Under the pieces are notes generated by a model. The model was not told where the DNA came from. It searched no databases and was given only the letters and a program-made list of their open reading frames with translations. Source: a virus. Taken from it: DNA of 30,935 nucleotides. Both the position numbers and the translations under genes were made by a program. Positions 20,496 through 30,713 of this stretch are shown one piece after another (the stretch's first letter is position 1; every line of letters begins with the position of its first letter). The stretch is taken from positions 1 to 30,935 of the IMG/VR virus record IMGVR_UViG_3300022752_000267, one strand, 5' to 3'.

Positions 20496-21170
20496 TCAAT
20501 CCATACTAACTAGCCCCTCAAAGGCAAATATGTTGTCAGTTTCCCACTCGTTTTTCTGTGGGAAAAAGCCAGTTCGCTTATCCCTTCTTGTAACTGACGC
20601 AAGGATGATCGGGGTGCTATTGATTGCCCAAAAGTCCGTAGCTCCACGGATTGCCTTGGCCATCTGCTCAAGTGATTTTGCTGTGTAGGTGTTTAACCCT
20701 TGAATTTTAATATCCTCTGGACATAACACAAAGAAGTTATCTTTGCCCATAGTCTGCCTAGCCCTCACGATTAACTCTAGTGGGTTGCGGTAGTAGCCTT
20801 GGGATAGCCCAAAGGGGGCAACTAGGTTATAAGTCTCTGGGAGTCCCTCGGCTGGTTTCTCGTCCAGCTTGTCTAGGACAATGTTGGTCTTGTTTGCGTC
20901 TTTAATTTCTGGGTGACTATAAACAAAGTCAGTCCAGCTTCTCTTGCTTTTCCGATAAGCCTCGTACTGGTTCGGCCATACTTCCAGATCAATAACATCG
21001 CCCATCCTATGCCCAGCCTTCACATAGCTGGTAAGCTCAAAAACTCCGTGATATTGGGCGAAGCAATCAAAGAAAACTTCGTGGCCTTGGTCGGCTAGAT
21101 GCTTGGCGGCTGGTAGGCAACGAAGCACATCCCCCAACCTCTGCGAGTATTTGATAGTTTTAACACTCAT
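20496..21170 (-). CDS. GT-B-like glycosyltransferase (heptosyltransferase-like), 224 aa
   Basis: The N-terminal pattern 'RLGDVLRCLPAAKHLADQGHEV' (in parts) resembles the start of GT-9 heptosyltransferases. A second Rossmann-like half follows: 'DNFFVLCPEDIKI' then 'LEQMAKAIRGATDFWAINSTPIILAS', where GT-B enzymes have 'D S...HLA'. At 224 residues it is shorter than ordinary GT-B enzymes, so it may be reduced. The ATG at 21170 lies inside the end of the GT-A gene. It closes the enzyme block. Confidence 0.55.
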   Translation of the reverse strand: MSVKTIKYSQRLGDVLRCLPAAKHLADQGHEVFFDCFAQYHGVFELTSYVKAGHRMGDVIDLEVWPNQYEAYRKSKRSWTDFVYSHPEIKDANKTNIVLDKLDEKPAEGLPETYNLVAPFGLSQGYYRNPLELIVRARQTMGKDNFFVLCPEDIKIQGLNTYTAKSLEQMAKAIRGATDFWAINSTPIILASVTRRDKRTGFFPQKNEWETDNIFAFEGLVSMD

Positions 21171-21927
21171 CGACAACGCTCTTGTCTGTTATGAAGGGGA
21201 AATAATCTCTCAATCTAACTGGGCTAGTGGTTTGTTGTAGGCTCTCCCATCCCTCGACCAACCCGTTATACCCATAGAAATCTTCCTTAAATTGGGCTTG
21301 CTCCTTTGTGGCGTAGGCGAAGTGGTCAAAGGTTAGCCCCCAAGTTTCCGTCACTCCCCTTGGAATCATCATCGACTGCACATTCAACTTGGGTGGTTCG
21401 TGGCTAATGAACTCAACTCCCCTGCCCCACTTCCAAGCCCGCAACCATTCGTACCAATGCGAAGCAAATCCTTTCCTAGTCACAACTTTTTTATTCTGCC
21501 CCACATAATAGTTACAATGGAACTGCATCGCTCGCCCCTCCTCGCATCCCTTAAGATGCCCAAAGATTGCGTCTAGCTGGTCGGCTCTCCATATCTCGTC
21601 AGAATCAATCTGCATCACAACCCCCTTCTCCACCCCTCGCAACGCCTCACCAATCATCGCTAGCTTACCGGGGAAGGGCTTTGCTTGCCAATAGACTGAA
21701 ACATTCTCGCCCCTAATGCTCTCAAGATATTCGTGCGTTCCGTCCACGCTCACAAAGTTCTTATGGTACTTCTCTGGAACTTGTTTGCACCAGCGGGTGC
21801 ATCCCAGAGGCTCGGCCACTCCCTCGACAATCTTCCACTCCCAAGGAATCTTTAGCTTTTGAAACTCTGCTAGATGCCTTTGAATATAGGGCATCCCATT
21901 GAGGACGATGGTAAAGATGGTCAGCAT
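21160..21927 (-). CDS. GT-A glycosyltransferase, 255 aa
   Basis: Opening LTIFTIVLNGMPYIQRHL matches GT2-type enzymes ('T.VLNG.....'), and 'VMQIDSDEIWR' (D108-D110) is the DxD metal/nucleotide-sugar site. Residues 120-200 contain aromatic-rich acceptor-side loops, including HWYEWLRAWKWGRG. No membrane segment. It is embedded between an FkbM-like methyltransferase and a GT-B-like enzyme. Confidence 0.75.
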   Translation of the reverse strand: MLTIFTIVLNGMPYIQRHLAEFQKLKIPWEWKIVEGVAEPLGCTRWCKQVPEKYHKNFVSVDGTHEYLESIRGENVSVYWQAKPFPGKLAMIGEALRGVEKGVVMQIDSDEIWRADQLDAIFGHLKGCEEGRAMQFHCNYYVGQNKKVVTRKGFASHWYEWLRAWKWGRGVEFISHEPPKLNVQSMMIPRGVTETWGLTFDHFAYATKEQAQFKEDFYGYNGLVEGWESLQQTTSPVRLRDYFPFITDKSVVDEC

Positions 21928-22433
21928 TTCAAGCGACCATAGATAACGCTAATCTCTGCACAAAAAGAAACCGAGTCGTGCCGATAGCATTCAAACCCAA
22001 TCGAATCAAACCAAGCAATAAACTCATTTAGCCAAGTATCTGAATAGTGTAGCTCGATGGCAATTTCTTTTAGATTGTGGACATTCCCAATTTGCAGAAG
22101 TTGAGTCTCGTCTCCTTCGATGTCGCATTTAATGTGGGTAATTGAGTTCTCTGTTATCCAAGTATCCATTTGAAATGCGGAATCTGCCTTTTCGCATAAG
22201 AACTTTCCTTGTGGATATTGTTGAGAAAGGGTGTTGATGTCCCCTTGGTTTATGTCCACCCCCATATAAAACTCTGGCTTTTGTGACAGAAAATACTTGG
22301 TTGTTCCATTGGCCTCTTGCCTTTCTGCTTCCGTCCAGAACGCACACCCCAAGTCCAGCACCCTCCCGCCAGCCACCTTGAGATGCTCCCAATGGATTTC
22401 GGGAGACTCCGATGTGATGATTCCTTTAGTCAT
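21921..22433 (-). CDS. FkbM-type SAM methyltransferase, 170 aa
   Basis: 'VLDLGCAFW' (25-33) is the SAM-binding glycine motif, 'GVDIN' (58-62) the acidic loop, and 'HIKCDIEGDE' (100-109) the FkbM signature around the motif-IV Asp. Members usually O-methylate sugars. It overlaps both neighbours by a few bases. It probably modifies the product of the glycosyltransferases next door. Confidence 0.75.
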   Translation of the reverse strand: MTKGIITSESPEIHWEHLKVAGGRVLDLGCAFWTEAERQEANGTTKYFLSQKPEFYMGVDINQGDINTLSQQYPQGKFLCEKADSAFQMDTWITENSITHIKCDIEGDETQLLQIGNVHNLKEIAIELHYSDTWLNEFIAWFDSIGFECYRHDSVSFCAEISVIYGRLKC

Positions 22434-23038
22434 AGCTCAAAGATGGCCGCACCATTACGAACAGACCAATCCTCCCAAAGCAGTTTAGCAAATCCATTGA
22501 GCTTGTTGTAGTTCGCCAAGTTCTTGATGTCGTTCACATCGTCCAATGCGATGATTGCCTTTTCTGCTAGGAATGGCCTTACGCAACGGAGTTCGGCCTC
22601 ACCAGAAAAAGGCGAGCCATCAATCAGCACAAAGTTAAAATCTACATTATGCTCAAAGTGGATGTCCTCGATGGCGTTGGTTGAATATGGGTAGGCAGTC
22701 TCTAGACAGACATTGTGCCAGCCCATAACTGTTTCTAGGGGATACTGATTGAGGCTTGTTTTGGTAGTTCGGTAGAACTCCTCAATGTCGTTCTTGTTCA
22801 TCCATAGCTTTGATAAGGTTGCTGTGCCGTTGATAGCAACTCCTCCCCTTGCGGATAGATTCATCGAATGCCTACCGATGCGGTCTGGGTGGTTCTCAAT
22901 GCTGAATAGCCTTTTTGTCCTAATACATTGAGTTGAACCATCCCCAGTTCCTCCACCGATTTCTAGGCCAACATCCAGCCCCTCGCTATATTTTGCAAGG
23001 GCTTTTCCAAATGAATCGTTAATGGTTATCTCTTGCAT
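22430..23038 (-). CDS. Class I SAM methyltransferase, 202 aa
   Basis: Motif I 'GLEIGGGTGDGSTQCI' (24-39), motif II-like 'LFSIENHP' (44-51), motif IV 'FVLIDGSPFSGEAEL' (136-150), and 'AIIALDDVND' (161-170) match the Methyltransf_24 type, often acting on sugars or small molecules. Coupled by ATGA to the FkbM gene. Confidence 0.72.
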   Translation of the reverse strand: MQEITINDSFGKALAKYSEGLDVGLEIGGGTGDGSTQCIRTKRLFSIENHPDRIGRHSMNLSARGGVAINGTATLSKLWMNKNDIEEFYRTTKTSLNQYPLETVMGWHNVCLETAYPYSTNAIEDIHFEHNVDFNFVLIDGSPFSGEAELRCVRPFLAEKAIIALDDVNDIKNLANYNKLNGFAKLLWEDWSVRNGAAIFEL

Positions 23039-23280
23039 TTTGCCATACTCGTTAATGCTTTTTTGATTGCGTACTCAATCACGGCTTCTGGGTCGTGTTT
23101 TAAGGCAAGCATCCCAGCCTCATACAATTCCTTCCCAGCCTTATCATCATAGGTAATATCCACTAGCACATACTTTGTTTTGTCTACGCTAGACTTGCCG
23201 AAGGTAATCATACCAAGCCCCTTCGTACTCTCTCCCTTTTTCGATTTCCTACATCCAATTATTTGCTTTGCGTTTTTCAT
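23026..23280 (-). CDS. Hypothetical basic protein, 84 aa
   Basis: Lys-rich, with a strand-like region 'TKYVLVDITYDD' and helices after it. It overlaps its two neighbours by 13 and 32 bases. No family recognised; embedded in the sugar-modification block. The start has AAGGA ten bases upstream. Confidence 0.6.
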   Translation of the reverse strand: MKNAKQIIGCRKSKKGESTKGLGMITFGKSSVDKTKYVLVDITYDDKAGKELYEAGMLALKHDPEAVIEYAIKKALTSMAKCKR

Positions 23281-24901
23281 AGATCGCTTTTCCTTTCTCG
23301 TAGAATTCTGGCTTGTTGTGGTTCTTTAGTTGTTCGTCTGGTTGCCCACCATTAAACATAGGGTTATCGTGTTTGAATTGAATATGTCTAGCCTCAACCA
23401 CGGCTTGTTCTGCATAGGCTCTATCCGTGAACTCGTTGTCTGAATAGATGCCGTCCGACTCTTGGTAGTCTGGGTGGAATAGATGCCCTTGCTTCTTGAG
23501 CCTAGATTGCGTCAGAATCGCCATACAGAGCAGTTTATCTTGCCGTAGGCCGTCAGATACTGCCAGCACTTTCTCTGGCGTTGTATCCCCAATAGCGGTC
23601 GAAATTAGGGTATCCCAATGGCGGGGGGGTGTCCAATCATCGCTCATTTGAATAACAATGTCCCCTTTGGCTATTTTTGCCCCTGCGTTCCAAGCGTTAA
23701 TCATCCCGCCCGGATTGCACCTAATGGCTTGGTGGGGGGTGTAGTCGGTTGGGTCGTTATGATCGACCATAAATAACCACTCAATTTCAAGGGGCTTTTC
23801 GGCTAAAGAAAGCCACATCCACCGCCTCTGCCAAGCAATCTGTGGTCTGCATCGAGTAGCGTGAACAATGCTTATCTTGGGGGCTGGTCGCATCTTCTTG
23901 ATCTTTTCTACTTCGCCAGCTTCTCCTACACACACCGAAGCCGTCTCGTATAAATCCATCGCTTGCCAATTGTAAATTGCCTCTACAAGATTCCAGTAGT
24001 GAGATTTTGGGCGATGCAAGGTCATACAAGACCTAATAGCTCCATAAGTCTTAATCCAGTTGCCCTTTCCAGACCAATGATTAGCGATATAGAAGTAAGC
24101 CTCTCGCCTATCGGGTTGTAAGGCCACGGCTTGCCCAAGGTAAGCAAGCCTCTCATTTTCTGGTACAATCCTTCCCAAGTTGCAAAGCACATCGTATCGA
24201 AGCGTATCCTCTAGGTCTGGGAAAGACAATGCTCGCATACTAGAATCAATGCACTTTTCGTGTTGATTAGATAAGAAATATTCTTGAGCTTGGTAGTAGA
24301 GAGAGTTGGCGGCTGGGGCTAGGGTGTCGGCTAATATATTAAAGTTCCTTTCAGCACTTCTGGGCTTGTAGCCGTGAGGCTTATGGATTCGGAAAATCTT
24401 ATCCACGCCAATCGTCTTGTTCGGCTCTTTGCAAACTAGCATTTCGTGAACTCGGTTCTTCCAGCTACAAGTTCCCTTCTTGGAGATTTCCTCTCGGAGT
24501 GGAATAAGTCCGGCGTTGTCTACATTGTATTTTAACGCCACTAGGTGAGCGTCTTTTTGAATGGCAAGGTCAATAGCCTCCTCGACAACCTTCGCCCCAT
24601 CCTCGGCCATCACATCGTCAGCATCTACCCACAAGCACCACTCATTTGAGCAAGCCTCAAGAGCCGTGTTCCTTGCCGTGGCAAAATCGTCTATGTGATT
24701 CCAATCAGTTCTTTTATTCTGGTAGTGAACGATCTTCGCCCCAAGCCCACTCGCAATCTCCTCTGTCTTGTCGGGCGTAGCTGACCCCCTAGAAATACAT
24801 ACAACCATTTCTTTTGCGATGGGGGCAAACGACTTGAGGCAACGCTCAATGTATTCTTCTTCATTTCCAGCGATGAGATAGACTGAAATAGGATATTTCA
24901 C
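23249..24901 (-). CDS. Two-domain glycosyltransferase with helical repeat linker, 550 aa
   Basis: N-terminal GT2 domain (1-180): 'SVYLIAGNEEEYIERCLKS', 'FATARNTALEA', and 'LWVDADDV' (D93, D95 as DxD). Residues about 185-335 are helical with TPR-like spacing (YYQAQEYFL, AYLGQAVALQPDRREAYFYIA). A second GT-A-like domain starts at 342: 'KISIVHATRCRP', 'NAWNAGAKIAKGDIVIQMSDDW' in parts, with S420-D422 in the DxD place. Start is GTG at 24901, 45 bases beyond the terminator hairpin. Two catalytic centres in one chain suggest successive sugar additions. The second domain could also be inactive. Confidence 0.78.
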   Translation of the reverse strand: MKYPISVYLIAGNEEEYIERCLKSFAPIAKEMVVCISRGSATPDKTEEIASGLGAKIVHYQNKRTDWNHIDDFATARNTALEACSNEWCLWVDADDVMAEDGAKVVEEAIDLAIQKDAHLVALKYNVDNAGLIPLREEISKKGTCSWKNRVHEMLVCKEPNKTIGVDKIFRIHKPHGYKPRSAERNFNILADTLAPAANSLYYQAQEYFLSNQHEKCIDSSMRALSFPDLEDTLRYDVLCNLGRIVPENERLAYLGQAVALQPDRREAYFYIANHWSGKGNWIKTYGAIRSCMTLHRPKSHYWNLVEAIYNWQAMDLYETASVCVGEAGEVEKIKKMRPAPKISIVHATRCRPQIAWQRRWMWLSLAEKPLEIEWLFMVDHNDPTDYTPHQAIRCNPGGMINAWNAGAKIAKGDIVIQMSDDWTPPRHWDTLISTAIGDTTPEKVLAVSDGLRQDKLLCMAILTQSRLKKQGHLFHPDYQESDGIYSDNEFTDRAYAEQAVVEARHIQFKHDNPMFNGGQPDEQLKNHNKPEFYEKGKAIYEKRKANNWM

Positions 24902-25005: not shown

Positions 25006-25968
25006 TTAGCTGTAAGTCGTGGTGATTCGGACGGCGGCGTTCGCATCAATGACTTTCTCGGCTGTGTTCATACGAACACGGAGAACATTGGAGCGACGAG
25101 CTTCGTCACGATAGCTCTCGGAGACGAAACCACCGGGAGCGTCATCAGACCAGACCAAGGTGCGTCCTAATCCACCAGCAGTGAACTGACCGCCAGCAAC
25201 ATTAGCAACAACGATCTTGGTGTCGGGAACAATGAACGAGCCAGAGTAGGCTTTGTTCTTGTTCGCTGTGTTGTAAGCCGCACGGCCTACATACACATTC
25301 TGAACACCAAACGCTTCGGCAATCTGCTTCTCATCGAGCAAGCGTCCACCAGTATTAGAAACAACTCCGTAGAATTGATTCTGCAAGAGGGTGGTACGGC
25401 GAACTCTCTCGTACACATTGGCAGACATAATCACCGCATTGGCTTCGTAACCGAGCTTGTTCAGGGCGAGCTTGCCAGCCGCAACATCCGCAGGGGCGTT
25501 GATGGTTGCCAAGTTGCCTTCAATGTAGGAGGCCGTAGGGCTTAAATCAGCCGTGGTGAATGGGGTCGTTGTCGCCCAGAGCAAGTCAGCCACCCGCTTT
25601 TCGTGGGAGAGTTTAACTTGTCGGAGCAAGAACTTGGCAGTTTCGCTTTCCAGCGAAAAAAACCTGTTTGCATCCTGCTTGAAACTATCGTCAATTAGCT
25701 CTTCCAAGCCGGTTTCGATACAATCGTAGGTATCACTCGTGAATTTCCGAATCGCACGAGCGTATTCAGAACCAGCAGTACGCTTGGCCGCATCAGCATT
25801 GAGGAGGTCAGCATCAGCCGTCTGCACTTTGAGATACACGCCACTCTTTGCCGTTACTGGCAAGAGAGGAAGAATGTCTGCACCGATCAAGCCAATCTCT
25901 GCGGGGGCTTCGATTAGGGCTTGGTTAATATCAGCACGAATGGTCGTGCCACCAGAAATAAAGCTCAT
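25006..25968 (-). CDS. Major capsid protein, HK97-fold, 320 aa
   Basis: Opening with a helical arm and 'EIGLIGADILPLLPVTAKSGVYLKV', a typical capsid N-domain start, then the E-loop region around 70-115 and an alternating helix/strand P-domain. Conserved patterns near the end include 'GRTLVWSDDAPGGFVSESYRDEARRSNVLRVRM' in parts, a feature of this capsid group. Position after protease and decoration genes and before a strong terminator supports the assignment. Length is normal for the family. Confidence 0.85.
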   Translation of the reverse strand: MSFISGGTTIRADINQALIEAPAEIGLIGADILPLLPVTAKSGVYLKVQTADADLLNADAAKRTAGSEYARAIRKFTSDTYDCIETGLEELIDDSFKQDANRFFSLESETAKFLLRQVKLSHEKRVADLLWATTTPFTTADLSPTASYIEGNLATINAPADVAAGKLALNKLGYEANAVIMSANVYERVRRTTLLQNQFYGVVSNTGGRLLDEKQIAEAFGVQNVYVGRAAYNTANKNKAYSGSFIVPDTKIVVANVAGGQFTAGGLGRTLVWSDDAPGGFVSESYRDEARRSNVLRVRMNTAEKVIDANAAVRITTTYS

Positions 25969-26385: not shown

Positions 26386-26790
26386 TTAGATTTTAGAAAT
26401 GCCACGGTTTTTAGCCTCGGCATATTCTGTGGGGTTAGATAGCATCACGGCGTTCATCGCCTTGAGCTTTGAAGTTCCGTAATCGCTGTGGGCGGCTACG
26501 AGTTCTTCAAAAGTTTTGGGTTCAACCTTCGCGGGGGCTTCGACAACTGGTGAAGCAGAGATGGGCTTAATGCCAAACTCTGTGAGAACTGCTTTGAGCT
26601 TCTCAGCCATCTGGCTTTCGTCCTTCTTGGCCTTATCATCAACGGAAGGAACTTCGGTTGAGGGAACGACTGGTGCTTCGGCTTTGTCCTCAGCTTGGTC
26701 TGCGGCTTCGTCTGCGGGTTTCATAGCGGCTTCGAGAGCCTCTAGGCGAGCTTTAAGTTCGCTCAATTCGTCCATATATTTCTTGTCCAT
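26386..26790 (-). CDS. Nested scaffold protein from internal start, 134 aa
   Basis: In the same frame as the protease, codon 270 is an ATG preceded by AAGGAG nine bases upstream, the best ribosome site of the head region. The product starts MDKKYMDELSELKARLEALE and is coiled-coil and acidic, as expected for a scaffold. Lambda Nu3 lies in gene C in just this way. Needed in greater amounts than the protease. Confidence 0.65.
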   Translation of the reverse strand: MDKKYMDELSELKARLEALEAAMKPADEAADQAEDKAEAPVVPSTEVPSVDDKAKKDESQMAEKLKAVLTEFGIKPISASPVVEAPAKVEPKTFEELVAAHSDYGTSKLKAMNAVMLSNPTEYAEAKNRGISKI

Positions 26791-27597
26791 ATTTTTATTC
26801 TCCTTGTTGTCAAGTATTGGGTCGTGTTCCACAACTGCTTGTGTGTCGGCAGGGATGCTCACGCCTCCCGAATTATATGCCAATTTTGATTCTGCCTTTA
26901 CGCAAGAACCAGATTCGTATGCCGGAACTCCCTTTGCTGGTTTGTAACCTTCCCAGCAACGGAACTTTGTCCCAACTGCGAAAACAAGCATCTCAATATT
27001 TTTGCTTTGAAAGTCTCTAAATTTCTCATTACTTGCAGGACTAGAAACTAGATCGGCAGATTCAATCCTCTGGGGGCGAATGTAGTCCTTGCCTCCAATA
27101 GTTTCAGATTCATTCAAGAAGGCAAGACTAACGCCAAACTGGTCGGGGGCTTCGTTTGCCATCTCTTTAACTAGGCCATAATGAGGGGAGCTTTTTAACA
27201 AGTGAAGATCGGCCAATAGCTTGTCCCCCTCAATACGGGGATTACGAGCAAATCCTAAAACTGCGTCCAATCCCGAGCCGTGGTTCATCTTAACCTTCAC
27301 GCCATTGGGTGCTTGAGACATTAGCTCATAAGCCTTCTCAATCGAGGTCTTATCAATGAATAGGTCGTGGCCTCGTGCTTCGCCTTGGCTCAAAATATAC
27401 ACATTAGGGATAACTGTGGAATCTTCTTCAAGTCTGGCCTCTTTGCGTTGCTTCTTTTTTGTGTCTCGATAGGTCTGGTAGGCAACTGCCGCCCTTTGCT
27501 TAACATCTGGAAAATCCTTTACGGCTGTCTTGTTGCCCATAAAGCGACCAACGAAGTCCTTTGTTTTCTCGCCTTTTTCTGGTGTGATTAGTGGCAT
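26386..27597 (-). CDS. Prohead protease fused to scaffold, 403 aa
   Basis: N-terminal segment (1-45) with 'MPLITPEKGEKTKDFVGRFM' and 'QRAAVAYQTYRD' is usual in prohead proteases of this kind. The protease domain (60-195) has H106 in VKMNHGSG and S157 in QFGVSLAF, with 'ESADLVSSPAS' after. A Glu/Lys/Pro/Ala-rich coiled-coil segment (270-345) and a helical C-terminus act as scaffold. Start overlap with preceding gene is clean. The scaffold is probably also made alone from an internal start. Confidence 0.8.
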   Translation of the reverse strand: MPLITPEKGEKTKDFVGRFMGNKTAVKDFPDVKQRAAVAYQTYRDTKKKQRKEARLEEDSTVIPNVYILSQGEARGHDLFIDKTSIEKAYELMSQAPNGVKVKMNHGSGLDAVLGFARNPRIEGDKLLADLHLLKSSPHYGLVKEMANEAPDQFGVSLAFLNESETIGGKDYIRPQRIESADLVSSPASNEKFRDFQSKNIEMLVFAVGTKFRCWEGYKPAKGVPAYESGSCVKAESKLAYNSGGVSIPADTQAVVEHDPILDNKENKNMDKKYMDELSELKARLEALEAAMKPADEAADQAEDKAEAPVVPSTEVPSVDDKAKKDESQMAEKLKAVLTEFGIKPISASPVVEAPAKVEPKTFEELVAAHSDYGTSKLKAMNAVMLSNPTEYAEAKNRGISKI

Positions 27598-27601
27598 ATT
27601 A

Positions 27602-27979
27602 TTAAACTAGGGTTAAGAGGTATTTGAGTTGGTTCACGCTTCCAAGAATCTCATCTCGGATATTCAACAAGTCGGTGTCACCTTCATTCAGATAACCCGG
27701 TAGCTCATCAGAAAGGAATGAAATAAACTCATCGTTGTATTCAGCAAAGCCCTCGAAGTAGTTATCTAGGCTAAAGTCAAAGGTAGAGGCAGAGATAATT
27801 CTGCCATACTTGCCCATAAAGGTTTCAACAAACTCATCAATGTTCTCTGTAAGAGACTCATAGATTTCACCAAAGCTCTTATGTTGGCTATAACTCTTTG
27901 TCTGCCAATGAAATATCTTATACTGATTCTGGTAGGTCAGTAAAGTTGTGAGAATTGTCTCGCCGTTGGCGTTTTCCAT
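27602..27979 (-). CDS. Dps/ferritin-like small protein, 125 aa
   Basis: Numbered from the ATG 27979 (a GTG two codons earlier is in frame), an all-helical protein. The opening helix has 'YKIFHWQTKSYSQHKSFGEIYESL', then 'IDEFVETFMGKYGRI' (each in parts). The pattern H-x14-D-x3-E, with HW nine residues before the second His, repeats the spacing of Dps ferroxidase ligands. Hypothetical proteins with this signature (DUF5856 type) occur in phages and giant viruses. The function is unknown; it lies between portal and protease genes. AGGTG site upstream. Confidence 0.65.
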   Translation of the reverse strand: MENANGETILTTLLTYQNQYKIFHWQTKSYSQHKSFGEIYESLTENIDEFVETFMGKYGRIISASTFDFSLDNYFEGFAEYNDEFISFLSDELPGYLNEGDTDLLNIRDEILGSVNQLKYLLTLV

Positions 27980-28001
27980 AATCACCTTTCTAGTTTGTCA
28001 A

Positions 28002-30713
28002 TTACTTGGCTTTGTCTTTAATCGGCCCACCAACAATCCAAGCATCACAAGTGCGTTTAGCCGCACACTTAAAGTCAAAAATCTCGCAGTATCCTAAGTC
28101 GCCACCAACTGCCACTTCATTTGCATCCTCACCAATACCCTTCTTAATGCAACCCAGAAGTTTGTTGGTCTGATTGAAGGCCGCACAATTACCACATCGC
28201 ATCTTTCTGGCCGTGGCTACATCGCCTTGGAACTCGTCTGCCTTGGCTTTCCAGTAGGCATCGTTTGGCTCGTTGGGATTTGCAGGGCCGTAGTTTGCGT
28301 CATCAACTGCGTTTTGCCTATTTGATAAATTGGTTTTGATGTCTTGAGTTGCGATTGGGCAAGAAGCTGGTTCTTCTAGCTTTTCATCTCGGCTGTCCAT
28401 TTGCTTGATAAGTTTCTTGACCCAAGAGAAGCCAGCATCACCTCCCCAACCATTCCACGCTTGCCATCCCTTGCCTTGATCGTCCCAGCCAGCACCCTTC
28501 TTATCGACTTCGTGACGGCTAAAGAAAGAGTGCATTCTGCGAATTGTGTCTGGTGATAGGGTTTTACCAGCAATCAAATCTCTAGCCCTAGCGATGCCCA
28601 CAGAGGTCATTCCTCGCTGGCTTGATGGCTTATTGCCTCGAACCGCTAAAGCTCGTTTGGCCGCATCCCTAGCTCCTTGTGGGGGCGTAAAATCAATGTC
28701 TGAATACTTGCCTAGCTCGCAAGCATTAAGCATTCCGCTAACAACCATATCTATTCCTTTAGAATCTAGCTTGGACAATTTCTCAAGGTTGTTATCAATC
28801 TGCTTGCCACCAATCTTGCTTGTGTCCTCGGTTTCTCCTTTTTCAGTAGGTTCACGCTCCTCGCCAACATCAATATCACCATCTCCACCAGTTGTGCGAG
28901 TTGCCGTGTCTTGCTCTTTAATTGGAGGGACAACCACAACTGCATTTTCGTCTTGTGGCTCTTCTTCCATTTTTTGAGTTGTTGGAATTGCTGGAGTTTT
29001 TCCAAGCGGGGCGATAGCTCCGATGTTAATACCACCTACAATTTGATTGGCCTCTTCTCGTGTAAAAAATGGGAACGCCGCTGTGATAATTGAAATAGAG
29101 CCTTCTCTAGAAATTGCACCAGAAGCAACTGCATTTACAACTTGAATGAGCGATGCAACTTGTGCTCCATTAAGGGCTTGATCTGCGACATAGGATTGAT
29201 TGGCTTGGTTGTTCGATGCGGCTTGTCCTTGTCCCGATCTTTCCACGGCTTGCTGTGCGTACACCAAGCTTTCCACAATATCGGAAATTGCAACGGCTGG
29301 GATATCGTATTCTTTTGCTAGTTTCTTAATGAAACTTGCCTCTTGTGCCCTTTGCCTTAATGATGTCTCAAAATCTTGGCCTCGCTCGCTGTAAATATCA
29401 GAGGCGGTTCGCAATCCAGTCTTAAACTCGGCTATGGATGATTCGGACTCCCGGCCTAAATCAATAGAGACATTAGCCCCAAAATTAAAAATGCCCTTGG
29501 TGCTTTTGCTTCCAAGATTGTTTGCGATCAACCCCCTAGACACTCCATCTGCAATTACAATGTTTTTTAGGGGGCGAAGAACTCTATCCTCAAGAAGTTT
29601 CTGGTATCTTCGGAAGGTGCGTCCAGCTTGTTGCATTTCAAGCCTAGCTGTCGGACCAGACATTGAGGAGGGGTCTACGGCAAAACTATAAGGGATTCCA
29701 ACACCCATACAAATGTTTCGCAAAAGAATCTTATGAAACTCTGCAAATGCACCAGAAGGACGGCTTGGGCCGTCTGGGAAAATAATATCTTCATTAACCT
29801 CTAAATAGCTAACCCTGCCCGGTTCAATAGTTTCTAGCTTGATTCCTTGATTGTCAGCGTTTAGGTCGTTTGTGAGGCTTGAAAGATCAGAGGCATTATT
29901 ATTATTCCGCTTTATAATTCCAGCTTGTGAACTGGCATATTTAGCGGCCATCTTCTCTGATGCAATTATTTCGTATATGTCTACGCAATCATTGATTGCT
30001 GTGTGAAAAGCAGAGATTCCCCTATATTGGTCAATCCGAAGTGGGTCATACAAGTGAAACGCTTGGCTTGCTGGTACGGTTGTTTGGAAGATGTAAGCGT
30101 TTCCATATGTGCGAAGGTAAATATCATATCCAACTGGCGAGCCAGTTTCTTGGTCAATGTGAATACCGCTAATAAGGTTGAGGCTTGTATAGGTTCGGTT
30201 TGGGTCTCCAAGTCTGTCGGCTTCGATGCCTTGTAGTTTCAAACTTCCATCTTGCGATCTAACTAAAACAAAAAGAAAATCTCCGTCTCGGAGCATCGAC
30301 ATCATAGCCACTTGCATTAGGAATGAGCCAGTATGCCTTCCAGATAAATCGCACTTATCCCACCATTCATTCCAATAAGCCTCAACATCGCTATTAACTT
30401 GGGGGCTTTCTGTTCTAGCTTGATAAGAGATATTACCAGCACAATGACTGGCGAACTTCATCAATAGACCACGCACTAGGCCGACATTCTCTGCCAAGTC
30501 CCTAGAACGCTTTAACAATTCTACTCGGTCATAGTTAGATCGGAAACCCTCTGCACCAGACAAAGAGGACGGCCCTCGGCGTTGTCTGTTGTATTGAGTT
30601 GCGTCATATTCAAAAGCTGTGAGCTTTGCCCTAGAAGCCAAACGCTGAACGGCGGCCTGTGGATTAACAAAGGCAATCGCCTTATCAATTAGGTTTAGTT
30701 CGACCTTTTTCAC
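28002..30713 (-). CDS. Portal protein with C-terminal fused domains, 903 aa
   Basis: Residues about 1-500 are a lambda-type portal (Phage_portal_2): early basic helix, 'RGLLMKFASHCAG', 'WNEWWDKCDLSG', 'LRDGDFLFVLVRS', 'SGPTARLEMQQAGRTF'. After an acidic, low-complexity linker (about 590-650) come two units. One, about 665-765, has 'GMTSVGIARARDLIAGKTLSPDTIRRMHSFFSRHE' (in parts) and 'WNGWGGDAG', seen as separate or fused domains in other phage head proteins. The last, about 838-895, has six Cys in C-x2-C-x11-C-x20-C-x6-C-x5-C. Usual portals have 450-550 residues. GTG start directly after the gpW-like stop. Confidence 0.82.
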   Translation of the reverse strand: MKKVELNLIDKAIAFVNPQAAVQRLASRAKLTAFEYDATQYNRQRRGPSSLSGAEGFRSNYDRVELLKRSRDLAENVGLVRGLLMKFASHCAGNISYQARTESPQVNSDVEAYWNEWWDKCDLSGRHTGSFLMQVAMMSMLRDGDFLFVLVRSQDGSLKLQGIEADRLGDPNRTYTSLNLISGIHIDQETGSPVGYDIYLRTYGNAYIFQTTVPASQAFHLYDPLRIDQYRGISAFHTAINDCVDIYEIIASEKMAAKYASSQAGIIKRNNNNASDLSSLTNDLNADNQGIKLETIEPGRVSYLEVNEDIIFPDGPSRPSGAFAEFHKILLRNICMGVGIPYSFAVDPSSMSGPTARLEMQQAGRTFRRYQKLLEDRVLRPLKNIVIADGVSRGLIANNLGSKSTKGIFNFGANVSIDLGRESESSIAEFKTGLRTASDIYSERGQDFETSLRQRAQEASFIKKLAKEYDIPAVAISDIVESLVYAQQAVERSGQGQAASNNQANQSYVADQALNGAQVASLIQVVNAVASGAISREGSISIITAAFPFFTREEANQIVGGINIGAIAPLGKTPAIPTTQKMEEEPQDENAVVVVPPIKEQDTATRTTGGDGDIDVGEEREPTEKGETEDTSKIGGKQIDNNLEKLSKLDSKGIDMVVSGMLNACELGKYSDIDFTPPQGARDAAKRALAVRGNKPSSQRGMTSVGIARARDLIAGKTLSPDTIRRMHSFFSRHEVDKKGAGWDDQGKGWQAWNGWGGDAGFSWVKKLIKQMDSRDEKLEEPASCPIATQDIKTNLSNRQNAVDDANYGPANPNEPNDAYWKAKADEFQGDVATARKMRCGNCAAFNQTNKLLGCIKKGIGEDANEVAVGGDLGYCEIFDFKCAAKRTCDAWIVGGPIKDKAK

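Follow-up and report, generated by a model that had tools for sequence, protein, structure and literature searches.

The C-terminal end of a phage portal protein encoded in the window (the whole stretch of DNA analysed here, a virus record of 30,935 bases) may well be a metal-binding domain that resembles the high potential iron-sulfur proteins (HiPIPs), likely carries a [4Fe-4S] cluster and serves as a head module with a structural role. We refer to this part, residues 785-903 of the chain, as the Cys unit. It belongs to a family with hundreds of occurrences in viral contigs, which has been named so far only by automatic annotation. In the literature searched, we found no paper on a HiPIP-like domain in phages, nor on a HiPIP or Fe-S domain in phage heads. 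Hence, should the Cys unit indeed bind an Fe-S cluster, that literature contains no earlier proposal of such a centre in a phage head; it would be placed on the DNA channel itself, and metal or redox chemistry in phage heads would become testable.

The portal frame and its extension

The portal gene (Table 1) is one uninterrupted frame, which runs through a lambda-type portal, a linker, a helical unit and a Cys-rich end without a stop, just as the first-pass annotation had read it, and matches both PF05136 and phrog_2859. In the Pfam profile search, PF05136 (lambda-family portal) is matched over residues 60-371 with 177 bits against a cut-off of 32.9, and head genes come next, hence the protein can be assigned to the lambda-family portals, while its score for TIGR01539 is under the cut-off of that profile. 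The portal core shares 23-27% identity with homologous portals of many phages. The lambda family covers residues 1-480, so that an extension of about 400 residues lies outside of it. Although the Cys unit forms a separate, overlapping gene in some relatives, it is practically out of the question that assembly or sequencing joined two genes here, because the in-frame succession of portal, helical unit and Cys unit recurs in about 50 viral contigs from different metagenomes, two of which (L009, L023) have a 904-aa layout resembling the window portal.

The distance between portal and helical unit, which the linker fills in the window, ranges from about 43 to more than 600 aa among the relatives. 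The helical unit matches phrog_2859 over residues 667-809 (PHROG profile search, E about 3.5e-27 to 3e-26), and the alignment of the unit (A4) has invariant positions A60, R83, H84, W106, G107 and G108, plus others; profile and motif both place it in this family. The function of phrog_2859 is unknown, its relatives are found in or beside head genes, and in Roseobacter, Vibrio and Synechococcus phages its members stand beside head genes or are fused to them. Unlike these relatives, the window copy is fused to a portal and has the Cys unit after it. For the helical unit, VIA-align with the second structural model described below listed no fold other than common helical arrangements.

Table 1. 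Features of the portal gene and of neighbouring head genes, given in positions of the window.
Feature	Position	Strand	Basis or remark
Portal gene with C-terminal extension, 903 aa, GTG start	28002..30713	-	single open frame; PF05136 E 6.6e-52
Portal core, residues 1-480	29274..30713	-	PF05136 and phrog_21
Linker, residues 481-660, partly acidic, low in complexity	28734..29273	-	length varies in relatives
Helical unit (RARD ... RRM ... RHE ... WGGD), residues 661-784	28362..28733	-	phrog_2859; alignment A4; helices in AF2 model
Cys unit, residues 785-903, HiPIP-like	28005..28361	-	conservation, profile alignment, structural matches
C785, clade-specific, co-occurs with C855	28359..28361	-	
C840, invariant, aligns with HiPIP ligand 1	28194..28196	-	
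C843, invariant, aligns with HiPIP ligand 2	28185..28187	-	
C855, clade-specific, 33/51	28149..28151	-	
C876, invariant, aligns with HiPIP ligand 3	28086..28088	-	
C883, invariant, without HiPIP counterpart	28065..28067	-	
C889, invariant, aligns with HiPIP ligand 4 (C-x2-W)	28047..28049	-	
Next gene, DUF5856/Dps-like	27602..27985	-	PF19174 E 7e-17; phrog_858
Probable prohead protease with scaffold-like tail	26386..27597	-	position between portal and capsid gene kept in relatives
Major head protein	25006..25968	-	phrog_1005 E 2e-29

Conservation of the Cys unit and its likeness to HiPIPs

Our survey of the family comprised 245 copies of the Cys unit, 183 of them different, and conservation was judged on 51 non-redundant units (less than 80% identical in pairs). 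The last 64 residues of the window protein show the spacing C840-x2-C843-x11-C855-x20-C876-x6-C883-x5-C889, exactly as the first-pass annotation had given it. All 51 units keep C840, C843, C876, C883 and C889, and C855 occurs in 33. The cluster of six cysteines proposed there is thus present as described, but a seventh conserved one, C785, had been overlooked, and only four or five resemble ligands. C785 lies within the motif CP-x-x-T-x-D-I-x-x-N-x-x-N-R (also given as CPxATxDIxxNLxNR); with this residue included, the unit extends over approximately residues 785-903 and holds seven cysteines. C785 is found in each of the 33 carriers of C855, whereas among the 17 scorable copies lacking C855 it is gone in 15 and shifted by one position in the other two. 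In the tree, one fully supported branch divides the types with and without C855, and the pairing of both residues may therefore reflect a single event.

No other part of the portal fusions is conserved as strongly as the Cys unit. Its mean identity to the window is 0.88 (portal 0.78, helical unit 0.77), and among the 16 closest relatives pN/pS amounts to 0.048 in the Cys unit, 0.106 in the portal and 0.071 in the helical unit.

In Pfam, PHROGs and NCBIfam the Cys unit matched no family significantly, and PDB sequence searches gave no relevant match or no match at all. Matches to WhiB-like PHROGs (E 0.07) and of the RQNAVDDANYGPANPNEPND stretch to a splicing factor (E 0.05) were judged to be due to chance. 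The HiPIP family profile PF01355 did not match the window unit, and of 14 members of the Cys-unit family a single one gave a hit, with an E-value of 0.061 that falls short of the family cut-off. For a profile-profile alignment with hhalign, HiPIP sequences were gathered from the genomes of one bacterial order, with one seed sequence confirmed against the PDB entries 1cku/1hip. In the best path, the four HiPIP ligands fall on C840, C843, C876 and C889, with a score of 23.0, P of 0.0011 and a probability of only 21%; the maximum was 22.2 in 150 permutations that preserved the cysteines and 17.2 in 60 full column permutations, and the hhalign confidence is restricted to the CxxC stretch. As to the earlier worry that the cysteines might occupy unrelated positions, this profile alignment sets four of them against HiPIP ligands; C883 and C855 have no counterpart among these ligands, and C785 precedes the aligned region.

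In this alignment, four cysteines of the Cys unit can be matched to the HiPIP ligands, with an aromatic residue after the CxxC and a terminal C-x2-W. However, the second and third ligands are 32 residues apart in the Cys unit (C843-C876) and about 14 in HiPIPs, and the Cys unit has one invariant extra cysteine and two clade-specific ones. Moreover, HiPIPs are small exported proteins, while the Cys unit is part of a 903-aa head protein without a signal sequence at its start. Since the family profile is not matched and the setting is different, we keep the Cys unit out of PF01355, and it reads as a HiPIP-like domain.

The predicted fold points in the same direction. With the first AlphaFold2 model, built without templates from 41 sequences and of middling quality (pLDDT 69), HiPIPs took ranks 1-12 in a Foldseek search against 350,542 PDB chains, and VIA-align returned at Z of at least 2 only 13 HiPIP entries and HpdC. 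The second model, also template-free, covered residues 653-903 with 62 sequences and reached a pLDDT of 81 (block means in the Cys unit mostly 76-86). Here, the top 13 rows of VIA-align were all HiPIPs (PF01355; e.g. 1hrq, 1hlq, 3hip) with Z of 4.2-4.8 and rmsd of 2.7-3.9 over up to 81 residues, followed by rows with Z of at most 3.3 that lie mostly over the helical unit; in Foldseek, a HiPIP was at rank 1 but HiPIPs made up only 2 of the 29 rows. In absolute terms, these scores are low (Foldseek E of 0.3-2 and Z under 5), and they were obtained on predicted models; the value of the matches lies in their specificity and repetition. HpdC (2y8n_B) is a glycyl radical decarboxylase's small subunit, in which a HiPIP-like Fe-S domain is accompanied by a second cluster. 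It aligns with the Cys unit with Z of 2.4 and rmsd of 1.8 over 38 residues (26% identity); however, it is a subunit of a cellular enzyme, and the weak match is missing from the list of the second model. The metal or Fe-S fold that had been suggested for the portal C-terminus is consistent with both models as a predicted fold, since each of them retrieves HiPIPs.

Occurrence and fusion partners in relatives

The Cys unit is not specific to portals; it also occurs on its own, in a gene coupled to that of the portal by an ATGA overlap, and in fusions with proteases or effector-like domains. The order portal, Cys unit, helical unit was found in 10 contigs, and in 14 the Cys unit has its own frame; a broader survey was in accordance with this distribution. 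In 12 split loci examined, the gene of the Cys unit begins where the portal gene ends, with an ATGA overlap in 11 of them, which is typical of coupled translation. A covalent link to the portal is thus not required, but proximity is kept. Other copies are fused to HK97/S78-type prohead proteases (L130, L260, L264), to other protease-like proteins (L139, L147), to DUF2213 (L272) or to a protease-capsid protein (L161). Stand-alone copies occur in many phages, in one case (L123) upstream of an SU10-type portal. All recognised structural partners work at the procapsid interior or at its inner face; hence, the Cys unit would most likely be a module of the head interior, a place that we infer from the fusion partners alone.

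Relatives of the Cys unit were absent from plasmid sequences, and genome contigs contributed only eight loci, every one in metagenome-assembled genomes and, by context, probably on phage contigs. The family also includes phage entries in GenBank named "high potential iron-sulfur protein" (OQ999401, MW202710, MW202867, MW202701, MW202879, MW202462), as judged by 29-44% identity and by alignment A1. Different from the window copy, these are separate small proteins, most of them without C785 and C855, and their name stems from annotation only. The resemblance to HiPIPs has thus been noticed by annotation but not studied. In correction of the first-pass annotation, the unit is not confined to portals, and distant stand-alone relatives already bear this name. 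In one of these entries, from the Actinomycetia phage DSL-LC01 (L082:4557-7120, OQ999401), a helical-unit gene annotated as capsid maturation protease comes after a Cys-unit gene that stands alone; here, both units keep company without portal fusion.

Further domains were found around the module. In some relatives (L033, L031, L107, L073 and others) the portal chains reach about 1,500 aa, with big insertions that precede or follow the helical and Cys units and for which only weak matches to DUF5824, minor head proteins and peptidases were obtained. Weak matches to metallopeptidases and minor head proteins also occur on the portal tail or on the Cys-unit chain of some relatives, and weak ADP-ribosyltransferase (ART) matches on these chains in four others (L030, L110, L013, L019). 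Two loci stand out, in which the gene directly after that of the portal and helical unit combines the Cys unit with an effector-type domain on one chain: a zeta-toxin-like kinase (L118:3350-7381, E 2.8e-19) and an ADP-ribosyltransferase exoenzyme domain (ADPrib_exo_Tox; L119:3335-5896, E 1.1e-5, over cut-off). On the portal chain of the window, the Pfam, PHROG and NCBIfam profiles recognised no effector domain.

Proposed cluster and role, and the alternatives

Cluster type, head location and role of the Cys unit are what we infer from the comparisons above. In the reading we favour, one [4Fe-4S] cluster would most likely be held on C840, C843, C876 and C889, with the invariant C883 close to it, while C785 and C855 could form a clade-specific disulfide or a second ligand set. 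The unit would hang via the flexible linker off the C-terminal side of the portal. In solved portals this side faces the capsid interior, so that up to 12 copies would be present in a procapsid. Its most likely role would be that of a metal-stabilised assembly or anchoring domain, which together with the helical unit may constitute a mobile module of phage heads. Fusion to the portal or protease, or synthesis coupled to theirs, would bring it into the head, and in relatives it may take further domains with it. The closest phage precedent is gpL at the tail tip of lambda, a virion protein with an Fe-S cluster on four cysteines and a role that is unknown (PMC10721106). The Cys unit, with its predicted four-Cys cluster, would resemble it in this respect; however, gpL belongs to the tail tip and not to the head, is of another family and has a different spacing (Cys173/182/205/212), and the window protein, a portal, is not of the gpL type.

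The same chain course could also hold a structural zinc ion, bound by C840, C843 and two of C876, C883 and C889 and stabilising the portal extension. In phage proteins, small Cys domains more commonly bind zinc, and the five invariant cysteines with their CxxC, as well as the confinement of the hhalign confidence to this stretch, would fit such a site. Nevertheless, we regard it as a possible but rather unlikely alternative to the Fe-S cluster, since zinc-protein families gave nothing significant and the best structural rows of the unit are HiPIPs and none is a zinc protein.

Another explanation sees the portal fusion as a mere route into the head, where the Cys unit would be released by cleavage; injected together with the DNA, it would then act in the host, e.g. 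in redox reactions or defence. Packaged and injected effectors have a model in Alt of phage T4. The effector-type domains in relatives and the stand-alone copies of the unit can be counted in favour, and packaging and injection of effectors fused to portal or MuF proteins (polyvalent proteins) have been proposed in passages of PMC9503650 and PMC5512222. Such fusions resemble the relatives with ART and other effector types in that the extra domains are C-terminal of the portal, but the window copy lacks a recognised effector, and the Cys unit does not appear in those passages. Furthermore, the unit is very strongly conserved compared to fast-changing effectors, which makes injection unlikely for the window protein. 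More generally, portal C-termini would appear as docking platforms for domain swapping, including likely injected effectors.

A more far-reaching version of the favoured reading, in which a redox-active Fe-S centre is widespread inside phage heads in up to twelve copies round the DNA channel, with C883, C785 and C855 forming an unusual or second cluster and serving as a redox switch in packaging, in maturation or in the release of DNA, and with effectors riding the same platform in relatives, appears quite improbable to us at present. Even less can be said for a metal-free disulfide domain of the extracellular type (e.g. C785-C855) that stabilises the virion after lysis: both residues are jointly present or absent (33/33 versus none at the same position in 17), but this co-occurrence is weak evidence of a bonded pair as the tree requires one change only, the core cysteines with their CxxC are odd in number, and the fold match is a cluster protein.

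Past the portal gene, the head region continues with the DUF5856/Dps-like gene, the probable protease-scaffold gene, whose product had no significant Pfam or PHROG match, a cement-like gene and the capsid gene. The DUF5856/Dps-like gene, with ferritin-type relatives and "starvation-inducible" as PHROG label, adjoins Cys-unit genes in about 30 loci, though not in all, and a tie to iron is possible. Finally, genes for glycosyltransferase (PF00535 in 23249-24901) and methyltransferase-like proteins are clustered between those of capsid and tail (20496-24901, minus strand); this cluster could serve in glycosylation of the virion or of a surface.
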